Source: Ruminococcus sp. | GTDB taxonomy: Bacteria; Bacillota; Clostridia; Oscillospirales; Ruminococcaceae | Length of the DNA: 52,639 bases | Assembly: GCA_017462565.1 (NCBI GenBank) | Contig: JAFTQW010000061.1 | Span: forward strand, 1-52,639 | Reading direction: 5' to 3' | Shown here: in pieces, positions 23,192 to 34,343 of the stretch | Layout: each line of letters opens with the position of its first letter | How positions within the stretch are numbered: position 1 is the first letter of the stretch | The notes under the pieces: model-generated | Databases searched by the model: none | Told to the model about the DNA's origin: nothing | Seen by the model: only the letters and a program-made list of their open reading frames with translations | Position numbers and translations under genes: made by a program

Positions 23192-23523
23192 TAGGGCAAC
23201 AGCGCTTACTTTTTTATGTTTATCAAGCGGACTTTGATTCTTTAAATCCCTGCTGAACGATGTATTTCCGTCTGGGCAACCTGCCCTAATTATTTTCATT
23301 ACCTCTTTACGAGGTAATGAAAATAATTAATACCGGGTTTCCAAAGGGTGACTCCCCACAGTGTGGGGAGATGTCGGCTTGCTGACAGAGGGGACGGGCG
23401 CCTGTTAGGCGGGTATCCCTTTGGCAGGGGTACGGGGACAGAGTCCCCGCTTAAGTTGTTGACATTGTTAAGGGGACAGCGTCCCCTTTATAACTAACAG
23501 AAAAAATAAATGCTGTTGCCATA
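23192..23523. mobile_element. Non-autonomous MITE-like element with GGCAACAGC termini
   Basis: Left end GGGCAACAGCGCTTAC, right end inverted (AAATGCTGTTGCC). About 330 bp with no gene. Internal modules: a conserved left arm (TTTTTTATGTTTATCAAG...), a perfect 18-bp hairpin (23288-23305 with 23311-23328, loop TTTAC), CTCCCCACA/TGTGGGGAG and TGTC/GACA hairpins, and GGGGACAG repeats. It lies between a terminator and the rnf promoter. The flanking ATAG on both sides could be a 4-bp duplication or chance. Confidence 0.75.
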
Positions 23524-23571: not shown

Positions 23572-23665
23572 TGAAATGTATAGCGTATTTCAGAACCTGT
23601 TTACATATAAATTATGTGTGTGATTTCATATGCTGACAGATTCTTAACATTAAAAGGAGAATATG

Positions 23666-24943
23666 ATGAATAAACTTAACGGAATAAGGCTTAAACACCG
23701 TAAAAATACGGAAAACAGCCATACAGAGGTTTTCCCGATTCCAAAAAAAGTGAAGATCCCAATGTCGATGACTATGGGCGCACCTTGTACACCGCTTGTG
23801 AAAATCGGGGATGAAGTTAAAGTAGGGCAAAAAATCGGGGACTCTGAAGCTGCATTCAGCGCTCCGATACATTCGGGAGTTTCAGGAAAGGTCACGGCGA
23901 TAAGCGACTACCGGACTGCTATGGGAGCTGTCTGTAAAGCTCTGGAGATAGAAACGGACGGCTTGCAGACGCTTTCTGAGGATATCAGACCTCCGGAAAT
24001 TTCTGATAAGGAAAGCTTTATAAAGGCGGTTCGTGAAAGCGGAGTCTGCGGACTTGGCGGAGCAGGATTCCCGACGCATATCAAGCTCAATCCGAAAACT
24101 CCTATCGACACGCTGATAATCAACGGTGCAGAGTGCGAACCGTACATAACTGCGGATTATCGTGAAATGATAGAGAATTCCGACGATGTTATCGGTGGAA
24201 TCAAGCTGGTAAAAACGCAGCTCGGAATAAAAAATGCAAAGCTCGCAATTGAAGCCAATAAGCCGGAGGCTATAAAAAAGTTCACTGAAATGGCAGATAA
24301 TGATGATACTATCGACATTATCACTTTGCCGTCAAGCTATCCCCAGGGCGCAGAAAAGGTAATCATTTATAATTCGACCGGCAGAATCGTTAAAGAAGGA
24401 GAGCTGCCTTCGGACGAGGGAGTTATAGTTCTGAATGTTTCAACAGTTGCGTTTATTTACCGTTACGTCAAAACAGGTATGCCGCTTGTTTCAAGGAGAT
24501 TGACAATAGACGGAAATGCGGTAAAAGAGCCTAAAAACGTAAGCACTGTTATAGGAACTTCTTTCCGTGAGCTTCTTGAATTCTGCAAAACAGATCTTGA
24601 TTCCCTGAAAAAAGTAGTTGCCGGAGGTCCTATGATGGGAATGAGCGTTCCCGATATAGATATGCCTGTTGTAAAAACATCCAACGCTTTGCTTGCTTTT
24701 GACAGCTACGACAACAGAAGCACATCTGCCTGTATCAGATGCGGAAGATGCGTCAGAGTCTGTCCGCTGGGACTTATGCCTGCCGATATTGACAAAGCCT
24801 ATAAAATTAAGAATATTGAAGAGCTTAAAACGCTGAAGGTAACTCTTTGCATGAACTGCGGAAGCTGTACATATGTATGTCCGGCAAACAGAAAGCTTGC
24901 GGAAACAAATCAGCTTGCAAAAGCTCTTATACCAAGAAAGTGA
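23666..24943 (+). CDS. rnfC: Rnf electron transport complex subunit C
   Basis: Peripheral NADH-binding subunit of the ion-pumping ferredoxin:NAD+ oxidoreductase. An N-terminal lipoyl-like barrel (VFPIPKKVKIPMSMTMGAPC, VKVGQKIGDSEA) precedes the glycine-rich GVCGLGGAGFPTHIKL FMN/NAD region and the SLBB-like part. Two C-terminal 4Fe-4S motifs are CIRCGRCVRVCPLGLMP and CMNCGSCTYVCPANR. ATG 23666 is better spaced from AAGGAGA than ATG 23663. First gene of rnfCDGEAB. Confidence 0.96.
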   Translation: MNKLNGIRLKHRKNTENSHTEVFPIPKKVKIPMSMTMGAPCTPLVKIGDEVKVGQKIGDSEAAFSAPIHSGVSGKVTAISDYRTAMGAVCKALEIETDGLQTLSEDIRPPEISDKESFIKAVRESGVCGLGGAGFPTHIKLNPKTPIDTLIINGAECEPYITADYREMIENSDDVIGGIKLVKTQLGIKNAKLAIEANKPEAIKKFTEMADNDDTIDIITLPSSYPQGAEKVIIYNSTGRIVKEGELPSDEGVIVLNVSTVAFIYRYVKTGMPLVSRRLTIDGNAVKEPKNVSTVIGTSFRELLEFCKTDLDSLKKVVAGGPMMGMSVPDIDMPVVKTSNALLAFDSYDNRSTSACIRCGRCVRVCPLGLMPADIDKAYKIKNIEELKTLKVTLCMNCGSCTYVCPANRKLAETNQLAKALIPRK

Positions 24944-24956
24944 GAGGGCGGATAAT

Positions 24957-25901
24957 ATGAATAAATTGATCGTTTCGCCGTCGCCGCACGACGATAATTA
25001 TGTAAAAACCTCAAAAATAATGCTCAATGTTATTATAGCTCTGATTCCGGCATTATGCGTCGGATGCTATTTCTTCGGCTGGAGAGTTATTTCACTTACG
25101 TCAGTATGCGTTGCGAGCTGCATGATCTTTGAGTATCTCTGCCGCAGGATAATGAAACGCAGCAACACGATAACCGATCTTTCTGCTGTTGTTACCGGAG
25201 TTATCCTCGCTATGAATCTTCCTGTAACTCTTCCGTACTGGATGGCTGTTATAGGTTGTTTTGTAGCGATAGTAGTTGTTAAACAGCTTTTCGGCGGATT
25301 GGGACAAAACTTCGCAAATCCTGCTATAACAGCAAGAATAGTTCTTATGGTTTCGTTTCCGTCAGCTATGACCCACTGGATAAAGCCTCTTGAATATCAG
25401 TATGACGCAGTTTCTTCTGCAACTCCGCTTGCTCTTGAAAGCTCCGGAGCAGATTCGCTTCCGTCGTATCTCGATTTACTTTTGGGAAAAGTCGGCGGAT
25501 GTCTCGGCGAGACCTGCGCTCTTGCTCTGCTTGCCGGAGGTCTTTATCTTGCCGCAAGAAAAATAATCTCGCTTGCAGCTCCGATCTCGTTCATCGGAAG
25601 TCTTGCGCTTCTTACGGCTGTTTCCGGCGGAGATCCGATTTATCATATACTTGCCGGAGGAGTTTTTCTCGGAGCATTTTTCATGGCGACCGATTATGCC
25701 ACAACTCCTATAACGACAAAAGGTAAGATCGTATTCGGTCTTGGATGCGGAATCATAACGTTTGTTATCCGCCGTTTCGGTTCTTATCCGGAGGGTGTAT
25801 CGTTCTCGATCCTCATTATGAACGTTCTTACTCCGTATATCGAACAGCTTACAAGAACTAAGGTGTTTGGGGCAAAGGAGGCTGTTAAAAATGAAGGATA
25901 A
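24957..25901 (+). CDS. rnfD: Rnf electron transport complex subunit D
   Basis: Integral membrane subunit with covalently bound FMN. 314 residues with about nine or ten transmembrane helices. The N-terminal SPSPHDDNYVKTSKIML segment and the NFANPAITARIVLMVSFP motif are characteristic. The flavinylated threonine is in DAVSSATPLALES. Start at 24957 follows AGAGGGCGG, 13 nt after rnfC. The end overlaps rnfG by 11 nt. Confidence 0.95.
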   Translation: MNKLIVSPSPHDDNYVKTSKIMLNVIIALIPALCVGCYFFGWRVISLTSVCVASCMIFEYLCRRIMKRSNTITDLSAVVTGVILAMNLPVTLPYWMAVIGCFVAIVVVKQLFGGLGQNFANPAITARIVLMVSFPSAMTHWIKPLEYQYDAVSSATPLALESSGADSLPSYLDLLLGKVGGCLGETCALALLAGGLYLAARKIISLAAPISFIGSLALLTAVSGGDPIYHILAGGVFLGAFFMATDYATTPITTKGKIVFGLGCGIITFVIRRFGSYPEGVSFSILIMNVLTPYIEQLTRTKVFGAKEAVKNEG

Positions 25902-26418
25902 GATAAAACCAACTCTCGTTTTAACAATAATCTGCGTTATTGCATCGCTGCTCCTTGTTCTTGCATACGAAAGCACAAAGGATAAAATTGCCGAGCAGAA
26001 AGAGATAAAGTTCAACAGCAGCGTTGAATCGCTGTTCGGAAAGTGTGAAAGCAGACTTCTTGACGATAATTTCGGAAACGATGACATTATGGCTATTGCA
26101 GTCACAAATGATGGAAAAACTGCCATTCAGGTGTGTGTGGACGGCTATTCCAAAGACGGCATCAACGTTCTTATCGGCATTGATGAAAACGGAGCATTAT
26201 CCGGAATTGAATTTGTCTCTCTCGGAGAAACTCCAGGTCTTGGTTCTAAGGTAAGGGATGAAGCTTCGTTCCGCAAGCAGTTTATCGGAATAACGGAAGC
26301 TCCCGAAAGCTTTGATGCAATAAGCGGTGCGACATTCTCTTCAAAGGGTATGAAGAAAGCCGTAGATACGGCAATGAACGTTTATAATGAAAATAAGGAG
26401 GCGATTCTCGGTGGCTGA
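25891..26418 (+). CDS. rnfG: Rnf electron transport complex subunit G
   Basis: Single N-terminal transmembrane helix (PTLVLTIICVIASLLLVLAY) and an extracytoplasmic FMN-binding domain. The flavinylation motif is DAISGATFSSKGMK, with the threonine as attachment site, preceded by LGETPGLGSKVRD. 175 residues, normal for the family. Overlaps rnfD upstream and rnfE downstream. Confidence 0.95.
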   Translation: MKDKIKPTLVLTIICVIASLLLVLAYESTKDKIAEQKEIKFNSSVESLFGKCESRLLDDNFGNDDIMAIAVTNDGKTAIQVCVDGYSKDGINVLIGIDENGALSGIEFVSLGETPGLGSKVRDEASFRKQFIGITEAPESFDAISGATFSSKGMKKAVDTAMNVYNENKEAILGG

Positions 26419-27085
26419 AAATAAAAAATCATTGGGAAGCGAAATAACCAAGGGAATCATTAAAGAGAACCCTACTCTTGTAATGCTTCTCGGAATGTGT
26501 CCGACGCTTGCCGTTACAACTCAGGCGAGCAACGGCATAGGAATGGGACTTGCAACTACATTTGTACTTCTCGGCTCGAATATTGTAATATCGGCTTTAA
26601 GAAAAGTCATTCCCGATAAAGTAAGAATTCCGGCATTTATTGTAATTATCGCAAGCTTTGTAACGCTTATCGGCTTTCTTCTTGAGGGATTCATGCCCGA
26701 TCTTTATGATAGTCTCGGAATTTACCTTACGCTTATTACAGTAAACTGCATTATTTTCGGACGTGCAGAAATGTTTGCAAGCAAAAACGGAATAGCCGCT
26801 TCCGCCTGCGACGCAATAGGTATGGGTGCAGGATTTACTCTGGCGCTTTTCATCATGGGTTCGATTCGTGAGATATTGGGCGCAGGACAGTGGTTCGGTA
26901 TGGATATTCCGGTTCTTCACGATAACCCGATGCTGCTGTTTATTATGCCGGCAGGAGGATTTTTCACTCTCGGAGTTATCATTGCTCTTGTAAATAAAAT
27001 TGCAAAAAGAAAACCGCCGCAGGAGCTTGGATGTCATGGCTGTCCTAATGCGGAAGCTTGCGGAAAGGCAGGTGGCTGTCAGTGA
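26411..27085 (+). CDS. rnfE: Rnf electron transport complex subunit E, with Cys-rich tail
   Basis: Six-helix integral membrane subunit that with RnfA carries the intramembrane cluster; NPTLVMLLGMCPTLAVTTQASNG holds the conserved cysteine region and ITVNCIIFGRAEMFASKNG the second half. A GTG start at 26411 has AAGGAGG upstream and overlaps the rnfG stop. After the last helix the protein adds a soluble tail ending CHGCPNAEACGKAGGCQ, four cysteines in 16 residues, which is not needed for the family core. Confidence 0.94.
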   Translation: MAENKKSLGSEITKGIIKENPTLVMLLGMCPTLAVTTQASNGIGMGLATTFVLLGSNIVISALRKVIPDKVRIPAFIVIIASFVTLIGFLLEGFMPDLYDSLGIYLTLITVNCIIFGRAEMFASKNGIAASACDAIGMGAGFTLALFIMGSIREILGAGQWFGMDIPVLHDNPMLLFIMPAGGFFTLGVIIALVNKIAKRKPPQELGCHGCPNAEACGKAGGCQ

Positions 27086-27660
27086 AATCCTTAATGATAA
27101 TACTTTTATCGGCTATGCTGACGGATAACTTTGTTTTAGCAAAATTTATGGGAATCTGTCCGTTCCTTGGCGTTTCAAAAAAGCTGGACAGCGCTTCAGG
27201 CATGGGACTTGCAGTTACATTCGTAATGATATGCGCAACGATAGTTACATATCCTATTCATCACGGAATTCTTGTGCCGAATGGATTGGAATATTTTGAT
27301 ACGGTCGTTTTTATTCTTGTAATTGCGCTTTTTGTACAGCTTGTGGAAACAATGCTGAAAAAGTGTGTACCCTCGCTTTACAGCTCTCTTGGAGTTTATC
27401 TGCCGCTTATCACTACAAACTGCGCAGTTCTCGGCGTAACTGTTCTGAATATTGACAACAGCTATTCATTTTTGCAGTCGATAGTCAATGCTCTCGGCGG
27501 AGGTCTTGGATTTATGCTGGCGCTTGTGATTTTTTCCGGCGTTCGTAAAAAAATGGAATATGCAGATATTCCCGAAACATTCAAAGGCGTTCCGGCAACG
27601 CTTATTGCAGCTTCGATAGTTTCCGTAAGCTTTATGGGCTTTTCCGGATTATTCAGCTAA
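27082..27660 (+). CDS. rnfA: Rnf electron transport complex subunit A
   Basis: Six-helix membrane subunit paralogous to RnfE. The GTG start at 27082 overlaps the rnfE stop. Motifs: LTDNFVLAKFMGICPFLGVSK at the N-terminus and LPLITTNCAVLGVTVLN in the middle, each supplying a conserved cysteine. 192 residues. rnfB follows after a GGAGGTGG ribosome site. Confidence 0.95.
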   Translation: MKSLMIILLSAMLTDNFVLAKFMGICPFLGVSKKLDSASGMGLAVTFVMICATIVTYPIHHGILVPNGLEYFDTVVFILVIALFVQLVETMLKKCVPSLYSSLGVYLPLITTNCAVLGVTVLNIDNSYSFLQSIVNALGGGLGFMLALVIFSGVRKKMEYADIPETFKGVPATLIAASIVSVSFMGFSGLFS

Positions 27661-27675
27661 GGAGGTGGAGCGGAT

Positions 27676-28476
27676 ATGACATATTTGATCCCTGCGCTCA
27701 TTGTCGGCATTTGCGGAATGCTGGCAGGAATTCTGCTGACTGTTGCCGCAAAGGTTTTTCACGTTGAGGTTGACGAAAGAATTGAGAAAATCGGCGAGGC
27801 TTTACCTCAGGCAAATTGCGGAGCCTGCGGATATGCCGGATGTGCAGATTATGCTGCCGCTATTGTGAATAATGGCGCAGCAACAAATCTCTGCCGTCCG
27901 GGAGGAGCGGACGCTGCCGGAAAAATCGCTGAAATTCTCGGAACTGCCGCTGCCGACGTTGTTCCTATGGTTGCCGTTGTTCACTGTAACGGAGACTGCA
28001 ATGCGACCCGGACTGCGTTTGAATTCAGCGGTGTTCAATCGTGCAAGGCAGTTAAACGTTTTTACGGAGGAAACGGAGTCTGCAAATTCGGATGTATCGG
28101 CTTAGGCGACTGTGCAGCCGTCTGCGATCATGACGCTGTTACAATTATCAACGGCGTTGCAAAAATTATTCCGTCGCTTTGCGGAGCCTGCGGACAGTGT
28201 GCTGCGGCGTGTCCTAACGGTCTTATATCCATAAAGCCGATGGCAAAGCATATTGACGTTCTCTGTTCTTCGGCTGCTAATGGAAAAGAGACAAAGCTGA
28301 GCTGTAAAAACGGCTGTATCGGCTGTAAGATCTGTGAGAAGAAATGTCCCTCCGGAGCAATTACTGTTGAGAATTTCCACGCTTCTATAGACTATGATAA
28401 GTGTACAAACTGCGGAGTTTGTATGCAGGCTTGTCCGGTTAAGGTTATTCACAACTGCAATAAAACGAATATATGA
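27676..28476 (+). CDS. rnfB: Rnf electron transport complex subunit B
   Basis: Ferredoxin-interacting subunit. One N-terminal transmembrane helix (LIPALIVGICGMLAGILLT), then the 4Fe-4S motif ANCGACGYAGCADYA with a distal CRPGG, followed by Cys-rich segments and ferredoxin-type motifs CGACGQCAAACPNGLI, CIGCKICEKKCPSGAI and CTNCGVCMQACPVKVI. 266 residues. Last gene of the cluster; a TIR-bounded element begins 3 nt after the stop and may affect transcript ends. Confidence 0.96.
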   Translation: MTYLIPALIVGICGMLAGILLTVAAKVFHVEVDERIEKIGEALPQANCGACGYAGCADYAAAIVNNGAATNLCRPGGADAAGKIAEILGTAAADVVPMVAVVHCNGDCNATRTAFEFSGVQSCKAVKRFYGGNGVCKFGCIGLGDCAAVCDHDAVTIINGVAKIIPSLCGACGQCAAACPNGLISIKPMAKHIDVLCSSAANGKETKLSCKNGCIGCKICEKKCPSGAITVENFHASIDYDKCTNCGVCMQACPVKVIHNCNKTNI

Positions 28477-28478
28477 CA

Positions 28479-28735
28479 ATAGCTTGTTCATACTAATCCC
28501 CAAAATAACAATAGATAAACTTGCGGCATAAATTCTACCATGCTGCGTCGAGCATCCTCGACAGGTGACTCTCCACGGTGTGGGGAGATGTCACGAAGTG
28601 ACAGAGGGGACGGCTCGTTCGAGCAGCCTGTCTTGCGGTGCTCTCCTTGTCTGATGAAATTTCTGCTCGCAATTTTATCTATCAACATTTCGGGGATTAG
28701 TATCACATACCATACATCATATGTGAACAAGCTAT
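28479..28735. mobile_element. TIR-bounded palindromic element after rnfB
   Basis: Perfect 12-bp terminal inverted repeats (ATAGCTTGTTCA at 28479-28490, TGAACAAGCTAT at 28724-28735) and a second inner inverted pair (ATACTAATCCCC with GGGGATTAGTAT); the left arm lacks about 20 bp present in the right. The centre carries the CTCCACGGTGTGGGGAG and TGTCACGAAGTGACA hairpins and AGAGGGGACGG also found in the elements at 23.3 and 34.2 kb. No coding capacity that I trust. Confidence 0.7.
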
Positions 28736-28749
28736 ATAAACTTTTTAAT

Positions 28750-28794
28750 AAAATGAAAAGCTGTCCGGAAAAAATCCGAACAGCTTTTCATTTT
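28750..28794 (-). terminator. Strong bidirectional-looking terminator of the small-peptide unit
   Basis: A 20-bp stem with one G-U pair (28750-28769 with 28775-28794). On the minus strand the hairpin is followed by TTATTAAAAAG-type sequence; it closes the small-peptide transcript. Confidence 0.8.
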
Positions 28795-28815: not shown

Positions 28816-28875
28816 TTATTTGCAGCAAATTCCAAACATCTCGCAGAGCATTTTCCAAATGTTATTGCAGCACAT
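28816..28875 (-). CDS. 19-residue Cys-rich peptide, copy 2
   Basis: Encodes MCCNNIWKMLCEMFGICCK, identical to copy 1. AGGAGG (complement of 28884-28889) lies exactly 8 nt before ATG, as in copy 1. It differs from copy 1 only at two third codon positions (Lys AAA and Phe TTT). Five of 19 residues are Cys, with CC pairs near both ends; the rest is hydrophobic with net charge about +1. No family recognised. It is the second cistron of a small minus-strand unit ending in a strong terminator. Product could be a membrane-active, metal-binding or disulfide-rich peptide; function unknown. Confidence 0.7.
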   Translation of the reverse strand: MCCNNIWKMLCEMFGICCK

Positions 28876-28920
28876 AATTGAAACCTCCTATTTTTATTTG
28901 CAAAGATTTATTGCTGTCAT

Positions 28921-28980
28921 TTATTTGCAGCAAATTCCGAACATCTCGCAGAGCATCTTCCAAATGTTATTGCAGCACAT
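28921..28980 (-). CDS. 19-residue Cys-rich peptide, copy 1
   Basis: Encodes MCCNNIWKMLCEMFGICCK. Its AGGAGG site (complement of 28989-28994) is 8 nt before the ATG. Start-to-start distance to copy 2 is 105 bp, and the flanking leader and post-stop sequences are also duplicated, so the pair arose by tandem duplication. Nucleotide changes between the copies inside the coding part are both synonymous, which argues that the peptide itself is selected. No signal peptide, too short for a folded domain without disulfides or metal. I do not recognise it. Confidence 0.7.
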   Translation of the reverse strand: MCCNNIWKMLCEMFGICCK

Positions 28981-29001
28981 GATCGAAGCCTCCTATTAAG
29001 T

Positions 29002-29037
29002 ATTGTTCCTTTGAACTGTCGTCCCTTTTGGAACAAT
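29002..29037 (-). promoter_or_regulatory. Inverted repeat at the start of the small-peptide transcript
   Basis: ATTGTTCC (29002-29009) and GGAACAAT (29030-29037), a perfect 8-bp inverted repeat with a 20-nt loop, spanning the expected transcription start. It may be a protein-binding operator or a 5' mRNA hairpin ending about 12 nt before the first ribosome site. Confidence 0.55.
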
Positions 29038-29040
29038 TAT

Positions 29041-29069
29041 ATTATAGCATAGCTTATTCGTTAAATCAA
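29041..29069 (-). promoter_or_regulatory. Predicted promoter of the small-peptide unit
   Basis: On the minus strand TTGATT (complement of 29064-29069), a 17-bp spacer, and a perfect TATAAT (complement of 29041-29046). Confidence 0.75.
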
Positions 29070-34076: not shown

Positions 34077-34343
34077 CAGGGCAACAGTATTTACTTTTTT
34101 ATGTTTATCAAGTTGACTTTGTTTCTTTAATTTCTTGCTGAACAGTATATTTCCTTTTGGGCATTCTTCATAAATTATTACAAATACCCCTTTACGGGGT
34201 ATTTGTAATAATTCAATTGTGGGTTCCCAAAGGGTGATTCCCCACAGTGTGGGTAAATGTCACGAAGTGACAAAGGGGACGGGCGACCGTTGGGAGCAGC
34301 GTCCCCTTGATAAATAACATCAAAAGTAAATGTAGTCGCCGTG
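34077..34343. mobile_element. MITE-like element with CAGGGCAACAG terminus and near-perfect target duplication
   Basis: Left end CAGGGCAACAGTATTTAC, right end the inverted form (GTAAATGTAGTCGCCGTG). Flanks ATTAATTATA (34067-34076) and ATAAATTATA (34344-34353) match at 9 of 10 positions, as expected for a target-site duplication. Inside: an 18-bp perfect hairpin (34173-34190 with 34196-34213, loop TTTAC), CCCCACAGTGTGGG, and TGTCACGAAGTGACA. No gene. Confidence 0.8.

Follow-up and report, generated by a model that had tools for sequence, protein, structure and literature searches.

Two identical peptide genes in one compact transcription unit

The minus strand of the window (the whole 52,639-nucleotide stretch of Ruminococcus sp. 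DNA that was analysed) carries two open reading frames in tandem that encode one and the same 19-residue peptide (Table 1). This identity, claimed in the original prediction, is exact at the base level, and the flanking elements named there, namely an AGGAGG 8 nt upstream of each start codon, a TTGATT-17-TATAAT promoter and a terminator with a 20-bp stem, are all present. As had also been stated, the two base differences between the coding copies are both synonymous (2.0 of 7.0 synonymous sites differ versus 0 of 47 nonsynonymous sites). The copies lie within a duplicated unit of 101 nt that repeats at a spacing of 105 nt with 92% identity, and a search of the same genome allowing up to three mismatches returned no copies of the gene beyond these two. 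Since neither a promoter nor a hairpin of its own was seen for copy 2, both copies are probably carried on one two-cistron mRNA.

Table 1 Features of the peptide locus and its immediate surroundings in the window
Feature	Position	Strand	Details
ORF copy 1, MCCNNIWKMLCEMFGICCK followed by TAA	28921..28980	−	coding 28980-28924, stop to 28921
ORF copy 2, MCCNNIWKMLCEMFGICCK again	28816..28875	−	coding 28875-28819, stop to 28816
Shine-Dalgarno AGGAGG of copy 1	28989..28994	−	ATG 8 nt downstream; read from the sequence
Shine-Dalgarno AGGAGG of copy 2	28884..28889	−	ATG 8 nt downstream; read from the sequence
Promoter TTGATT-17-TATAAT	29041..29069	−	-35 at 29069-29064, -10 at 29046-29041; extended -10, TGC before TATAAT
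5' hairpin ATTGTTCC / GGAACAAT	29002..29037	−	20-nt loop; at, or close to, the point where the transcript is expected to begin
Intrinsic terminator, 20-bp stem	28750..28794	−	arms 28750-28769/28775-28794, 95% complementary
MITE-like element	28490-28709		inverted ends of 36 bp, 28490-28525/28668-28703; rnfB on one side, the peptide unit on the other

A further element, the 5' hairpin, was absent from the original description. It starts at the fourth base after the -10 and, in the predicted fold of the whole unit, forms with a pairing probability of 0.94-0.96, while the Shine-Dalgarno sites are predicted to be partly paired (0.68 for copy 1 and 0.66 for copy 2). The unit as a whole folds better than 100 of 100 dinucleotide shuffles (z -5.6), a strong score that is partly due to the terminator. 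The proposal of a complete, roughly 290-nt transcription unit is supported by homologous loci, which retain both the ORF and the surrounding signals, and this retention argues that the window unit did not arise by chance.

The peptide is conserved at the protein level within the genus

When the 19-mer was used as a tblastn query, matches were obtained in 80 of the 125 genomes of the genus at E ≤ 10, a permissive limit that includes chance matches, and in 31 genomes at E < 1e-3. Forty further stretches were read by script for family members; because only relatives with a GGAG-type site entered the list, the presence of a Shine-Dalgarno site in these is not independent evidence. A covariance model spanning 117 positions from promoter to stop (R1), whose seed excluded members with long leader loops as well as L038 and L074, in which the promoter was not clear, detected the unit in 80 of the 125 genomes at E ≤ 0.01 and in 49 of the 68 good genomes, so that in the 45 genomes of the genus that gave no match the gene is either dispensable or was missed. 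Alignment of 34 of 47 distinct peptides yields the genus consensus M-C-C-N-N-I-W-K-x-L-C-x-L-F-G-x-C-C, with Met1, Cys2 and Cys11 invariant among those aligned.

The pattern of substitution was analysed in 66 ORFs from 56 same-genus loci. Over 49 nearest-neighbour pairs, differences occupy 133.0 of 403.3 synonymous sites versus 131.0 of 2068.7 nonsynonymous sites, and dN/dS (JC) is 0.074 below 10% divergence, 0.079 at 10-20% and 0.16 at 20-30%; the raw pN/pS climbs from 0.09 to 0.47 with distance, a rise explained by saturation of the synonymous sites. In 195 close pairs, codon positions 3, 1 and 2 account for 954, 292 and 95 differences, respectively. Tandem duplication is itself recurrent, with two copies in 10 of the 56 loci and three in G490, and the ten tandem pairs differ at 41.0 of 83.7 synonymous versus 25.0 of 450.3 nonsynonymous sites, the peptides being identical between the copies in five of the ten loci. 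Second copies were left out wherever first copies were counted, as were L001 (the same place as L002, the window locus), L094, L095, L098 and L101 (repeats of other loci) and the non-family ORF MCGLCGRCRKQRCAN; L069, L070 and L074 were additionally removed from the same-genus counts. Selection on the peptide, which the original prediction had proposed to test by comparing synonymous and nonsynonymous changes over homologues, is thus supported by a synonymous excess: homologues keep the codons, the reverse of the outcome that the prediction had named as refuting it, and the 5' hairpin is retained too. That this is a real and conserved peptide gene, with homologues forming a family, is in our judgement close to certain.

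A leader hairpin and a terminator accompany the gene across the order

The usual unit comprises a sigma-A-type promoter, a covarying 5' hairpin, an AGGAGG-type site, an ORF for 16-29 amino acids and a terminator, and it recurs across the order. The -10 is aligned in 44 relatives (the alignment begins 60 nt before the ATG) and the -35 is visible in the locus listing, while the best sense promoter score in the 90 nt 5' of the ATG averages 9.98 of 12 over 54 loci. The hairpin occupies a near-constant place, with its start mostly 3-8 nt past the -10, and a change in one arm is matched in the other: the stems of relatives include TCCC/GGGA, TTGTC/GACAA, TCCGC/GCGGA, TGTTC/GAACA and GTCC/GGAC, and enclose loops of 3-24 nt. 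A stem of at least 4 bp was scored in 72 of 75 leaders, some of them wrong picks (for at least seven members the -10 taken by the script was wrong, and no -10 was found in L074 and L115), and the significance of each leader is modest, as shuffled sequences match the stem in 11% of cases on average and in fewer than 5% for 30 of 72 members. Single leaders are for this reason weak evidence for the kind of element involved; a DNA operator instead of an RNA hairpin is nevertheless less likely, since the loop length varies while the arms still match. At the other end of the unit, a terminator-like hairpin follows the last stop codon in 52 of 55 same-genus loci, compared with 2.0 of 55 in shuffled sequence. 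We also observed by eye, at a near-fixed distance 5' of the -35 in many loci (L150-L179 and same-genus loci), a TTCCA or TGCCA element, in some cases as TTGGAA in the opposite orientation.

Outside the genus, R1 was run at E ≤ 1 on 396 genomes of the family and 295 of the order, and matched 60 and 31 of them, respectively; many of these matches are weak. A matching ORF was read in 15 of 17 loci from other genera of the family (L108-L124, E ≤ 0.0128) and none was seen in the remaining two, L120 and L121; members were also read in three other families of the order, f14 (L133, L134), f24 (L136, L138) and f9 (L137). Many of these far members are linked to the genus by a core recognized by eye, C-x-x-[IL]-W-x-x-L-[CS]-x-[LI]-[FC]-G-x-[GC]-C. 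A looser pattern of this core fits 72 of the 96 distinct peptides and misses 24, and for the most divergent of these 24 the putative homology rests on the leader.

The leader is in fact a simple handle for finding more members. A second form of it, designated type B (TCCTCG[AC]GAGACAA, then GGAGG and ATG), was matched in 30 contigs across the GTDB genome collection, of which 25 are titled Oscillospiraceae, Ruminococcaceae or genera that we take to be theirs, and five only Eubacteriales, Clostridia, Clostridium sp. or bacterium. The ORF that follows encodes a peptide of 16-29 residues with 2-6 Cys in 29 of the 30. In the thirtieth, L157, it encodes a LysM-type protein (so named by likeness to a LysM profile match) with a signal-like start, which indicates that another kind of gene can carry this leader as well; in this contig the promoter, a WalR-type box and the type-B hairpin all precede the LysM-type gene, whose ATG lies on the reverse strand. 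The hairpin loops of five type-B members (L113, L117, L133, L136 and L137) contain 6-nt self-complementary stretches (TCGCGA, CTCGAG or TTGCAA), through which two mRNAs could conceivably kiss, and the loops AAGA and GAAA of the genus are free of such stretches. In 291 genomes of the class, a sequence-only model (R2) placed three genomes at 39-43 bits, namely the window together with two genomes from g149 of the order, with the next at 26.2 bits; as R2 would miss divergent leaders, absence outside the order is not proven by this search. Both R2 in the class and the profile A1 in the family gave many chance hits.

The unit stands alone among variable neighbours

An ORF of at least 90 amino acids lies downstream in 51 of the 56 loci, where the genes fall into 26 groups, 41 in reverse and 10 in forward orientation, and the four largest groups (23 loci) are all convergent. 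These numbers replace a cruder count (21 forward, 29 reverse) whose forward class was swollen by spurious ORFs on the strand opposite real genes, and a few of the 10 remaining forward ORFs also look spurious. No conserved co-directional gene follows the terminator at the 51 loci, and the scatter of the downstream genes over so many groups argues that the unit stands alone.

This arrangement bears on the idea that the locus is a regulatory leader or dual-function small RNA, in which ribosomes on the Cys-rich ORF would respond to charged Cys-tRNA and so govern the terminator or the activity of the RNA. A conserved hairpin, a short Cys-rich ORF and a terminator do have the form of an attenuator, and the partial pairing predicted for the Shine-Dalgarno sites of the window would suit such control. 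Cys-responsive leader peptides occur in actinobacteria, and they likewise consist of a very short Cys-rich ORF near a terminator; they differ from the present family, in which the downstream gene is not conserved and residues other than Cys are conserved as well. Tandem copies, moreover, keep the peptide while their codons drift (10 pairs). Given the 26 downstream groups and the opposite direction of 41 of the 51 genes, attenuation was dropped, and we consider a regulatory leader or dual-function small RNA very unlikely.

Another alternative is a type I toxin, a membrane-active peptide kept in check by an RNA acting antisense or in trans. The peptide is small and amphipathic, its gene has its own promoter and terminator, the two- and three-copy loci recall the tandem arrangement of known toxin loci, and a partly paired Shine-Dalgarno site, as predicted for both copies in the window, is a usual brake on genes of this type. 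Ibs, Ldr and TxpA are type I toxins. However, the best antisense promoter score in the 200 nt from the ATG onwards (the ORF and its 3' side, a scan that covers antisense RNAs in cis) is 8.17 of 12, compared with 8.28 in mononucleotide-shuffled sequence (54 loci), and this equality weakens the toxin reading. The gene is also retained across an order, and no exact match to a 27-base pattern was found in viral contigs, nor any match to one 29-residue member in phages. Together with TimP (PMC7667032), the toxins named above resemble the family in being tiny membrane-type peptide genes, sometimes in tandem, and differ from it in that here an antisense promoter signal and an antitoxin RNA were not seen and retention is order-wide. 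On balance we consider a type I toxin improbable.

On the upstream side, two same-strand genes are steady neighbours in the genus, within 1.5-3 kb: of 52 loci, 47 have a metallophosphoesterase and 43 have TspO. TspO was assigned by PF03073 and the metallophosphoesterase only by a sub-threshold calcineurin-like hit. A functional tie to either was not adopted, because the peptide locus of the window lacks TspO, which is present on another contig of the same genome, and because neither gene was found at 62 loci outside the genus.

The peptide is computed to be an amphipathic helix with terminal and central Cys

The 96 distinct peptides are 16-29 residues long and contain 22% Cys (Met1 excluded) and almost no Pro, Val or His. 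Averaged over the 48 distinct peptides of the genus, the hydrophobic moment is greatest at 100 degrees (0.467), falling to 0.376 at 90 degrees, 0.348 at 110 degrees and 0.12-0.20 elsewhere, and 44 of these 48 lie in the top 10% of their own shuffles for the helical moment. Nine distant peptides were also tried, of which five lie in the top 10% and four do not (shuffle fractions 0.47, 0.30, 0.13 and 0.12). By calculation the peptide is a strongly amphipathic helix, and its Cys residues are placed both terminally and centrally. Among the functions suggested in the original prediction, which included a membrane-active or metal-binding peptide, a small toxin and a signalling peptide, membrane activity fits this computed helix best, while the toxin, at least as a type I system, has lost ground through the antisense scores described above.

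The abundance of Cys could alternatively be the point of the molecule: a thiolate peptide, made in bulk as a miniature metallothionein or redox buffer, would bind Cu(I), Zn or an Fe-S cluster, or take up oxidative stress, and its helix would merely arrange the Cys ligands. Three to six Cys are found in 94 of the 96 peptides (2-6 overall), 78 have Cys as residue 2 and 55 end in Cys, longer members carry additional Cys at the N-terminus, and an anaerobic cytoplasm favours free thiols. Yet the number and spacing of the Cys vary while the genus keeps the hydrophobic face, and no metal-transport gene came to notice among the neighbours; we regard this alternative as unlikely. A secreted signal or leaderless antimicrobial peptide would similarly be amphipathic, Cys-rich, encoded on its own and probably well expressed. 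Against it, a signal sequence is absent by eye, and within 1.5-3 kb nothing but the metallophosphoesterase and TspO recurs steadily beside the gene in the genus; we consider secretion very doubtful.

As the original prediction had supposed, no described family was found in the libraries or in the open-licence literature searched. Scans of NCBIfam and Pfam with seven members of 20-29 amino acids gave no match, apart from one sub-threshold hit to MRP-S34 (E 0.22), and neither did PHROGs (four members) nor the PDB (one member); the scans used members of 20-29 amino acids because the 19-mer of the window falls below the 20-residue limit. All 18 Rfam matches listed by E-value in the window between 28600 and 29200 remained under their gathering scores, many of them lying on the terminator, and at the gathering score 20 loci returned tRNAs only. 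The peptide was not found described in open-licence papers, a scope outside which lie the small-ORF catalogues in supplements, where an earlier unnamed entry is possible. The family is thus new to every library searched, and its kind, the small stand-alone amphipathic microprotein, is already known. SpoVM and the phenol-soluble modulins are small amphipathic microproteins of the membrane surface that are not Cys-rich; the present peptides resemble them as helices of about 20 residues with no signal peptide and with their own ribosome site, and differ in their Cys-rich ends, in the conserved 5' hairpin leader and in that no library match links them. Peptides of 16-29 residues are commonly omitted by gene finders, and the family adds a conserved protein of rumen and gut bacteria at this lower edge of size.

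A WalR-type box marks many promoters outside the genus

The sequence TGTWAH-N5-TGTWAH is cited as the WalR consensus of B. subtilis in one report (PMC9210968), and a box of this kind between the -35 and -10 is tied to repression in S. aureus, irrespective of its orientation, in another (PMC10746227). An exact match on the reverse strand is present in 17 of the 30 type-B promoters, compared with 0.026 expected per 30 in mononucleotide shuffles. Apart from the LysM gene L157, the bearers are 16 of the 29 peptide genes, L156 of Pseudoflavonifractor phocaeensis among them, and the other 13 promoters lack the box. It sits between the -35 and -10, and because it shares bases with the -10, some of the match may simply be promoter sequence. 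The family and order searches supplied 20 further members, at least five of them duplicating sequences of the type-B set of 30; here the box occurs forward in five and reverse in two. In the genus of the window, by contrast, none of 56 loci, the window included, has an exact box within 200 nt upstream; together with its absence from the 13 type-B promoters, this means that envelope control may not apply there.

The WalR-repressed envelope genes iseA and pdaC of Bacillus subtilis offer a parallel, in that they have the consensus box between the -35 and -10; the present genes differ in encoding a Cys-rich product of 16-29 residues and in the absence of the box from the window's genus. To place the box among other genes, GTTACAAANNGGTTACAAT was searched with up to two mismatches in 10 genomes, selected for having the box, or something close to it, at their peptide promoter, and gave 30 hits versus 2 for the reversed pattern. 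Behind these hits lie the peptide genes (nine listed directly and the tenth, L217, placed by its coordinates), ftsE-like genes in seven of the 10 chosen genomes, and a LysM gene, a lysozyme-like protein and another exported protein in one each, whereas the genes at the remaining hits are unclear or unrelated. For two of the seven ftsE-like starts, scans of 90-residue pieces, which cannot reach the FtsE cut-off, put FtsE ahead as the best NCBIfam match by 26-34 bits; the other five were named by likeness. The GTTACA-N5-GTTACA-type box at these ftsE-like promoters (L221, L223, L224, L226, L230, L232 and L233) is a candidate regulator site for FtsEX in the order.

A possible membrane-surface microprotein serving the cell envelope

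Taken as a whole, the reading that we favour is an abundant membrane-surface microprotein with thiol-rich ends that serves the cell envelope, a proposal we put forward tentatively and at somewhat short of even chances. Its parts differ in strength. That the peptide is a helix of the membrane surface is probable, judging from the computed amphipathicity; an envelope role, suggested by the box in other genera, is possible but would not be our first wager. A 5'-terminal stem slows the decay of Gram-positive mRNAs, as in the ermC and aprE leaders, and the 5' hairpin would likewise protect this short mRNA, from which we infer that the peptide may be abundant; the predicted partial pairing of both Shine-Dalgarno sites in the window speaks against unhindered translation. 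Cys at residue 2 should permit removal of the initiator Met, which would leave an N-terminal Cys. The helix would then lie on the inner face of the cytoplasmic membrane, where the thiols may bind metal or cross-link copies of the peptide.

With less weight, the peptide may serve cell-envelope homeostasis, an idea drawn from the WalR-type box at peptide promoters and from similar boxes before ftsE and LysM genes. The box predicts repression in the other genera, so that the peptide would rise when Wal signalling falls, and it might then damp or tune the activity of a wall hydrolase or sensor at the membrane. Against an envelope role, neither of the steady neighbours in the genus, the metallophosphoesterase and TspO, is a wall gene. 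A bolder version, which we think unlikely, would make the order-wide peptides a membrane effector or feedback element of the Wal circuit that tunes FtsEX-linked hydrolases or the sensor kinase, with the Ruminococcus-like genus of the window having rewired the control and kept the peptide. If the WalR-type link holds, the family would give the order's cell-wall control circuit a peptide component.

Genomic surroundings in the window

The MITE-like element beside the peptide unit has three more near-full copies in the genome (97-99%) as well as partial ones. Nested in it is a repeat of about 50 bp (28564-28613) that is also seen at 34233-34282 and 23347-23397 and has about 30 further short matches in the genome. 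Cellulosome-type genes adjoin the rnf operon (23663-28476): between 30338 and 34055 the window encodes enzymes of families GH26 and GH5 that each carry a type I dockerin.
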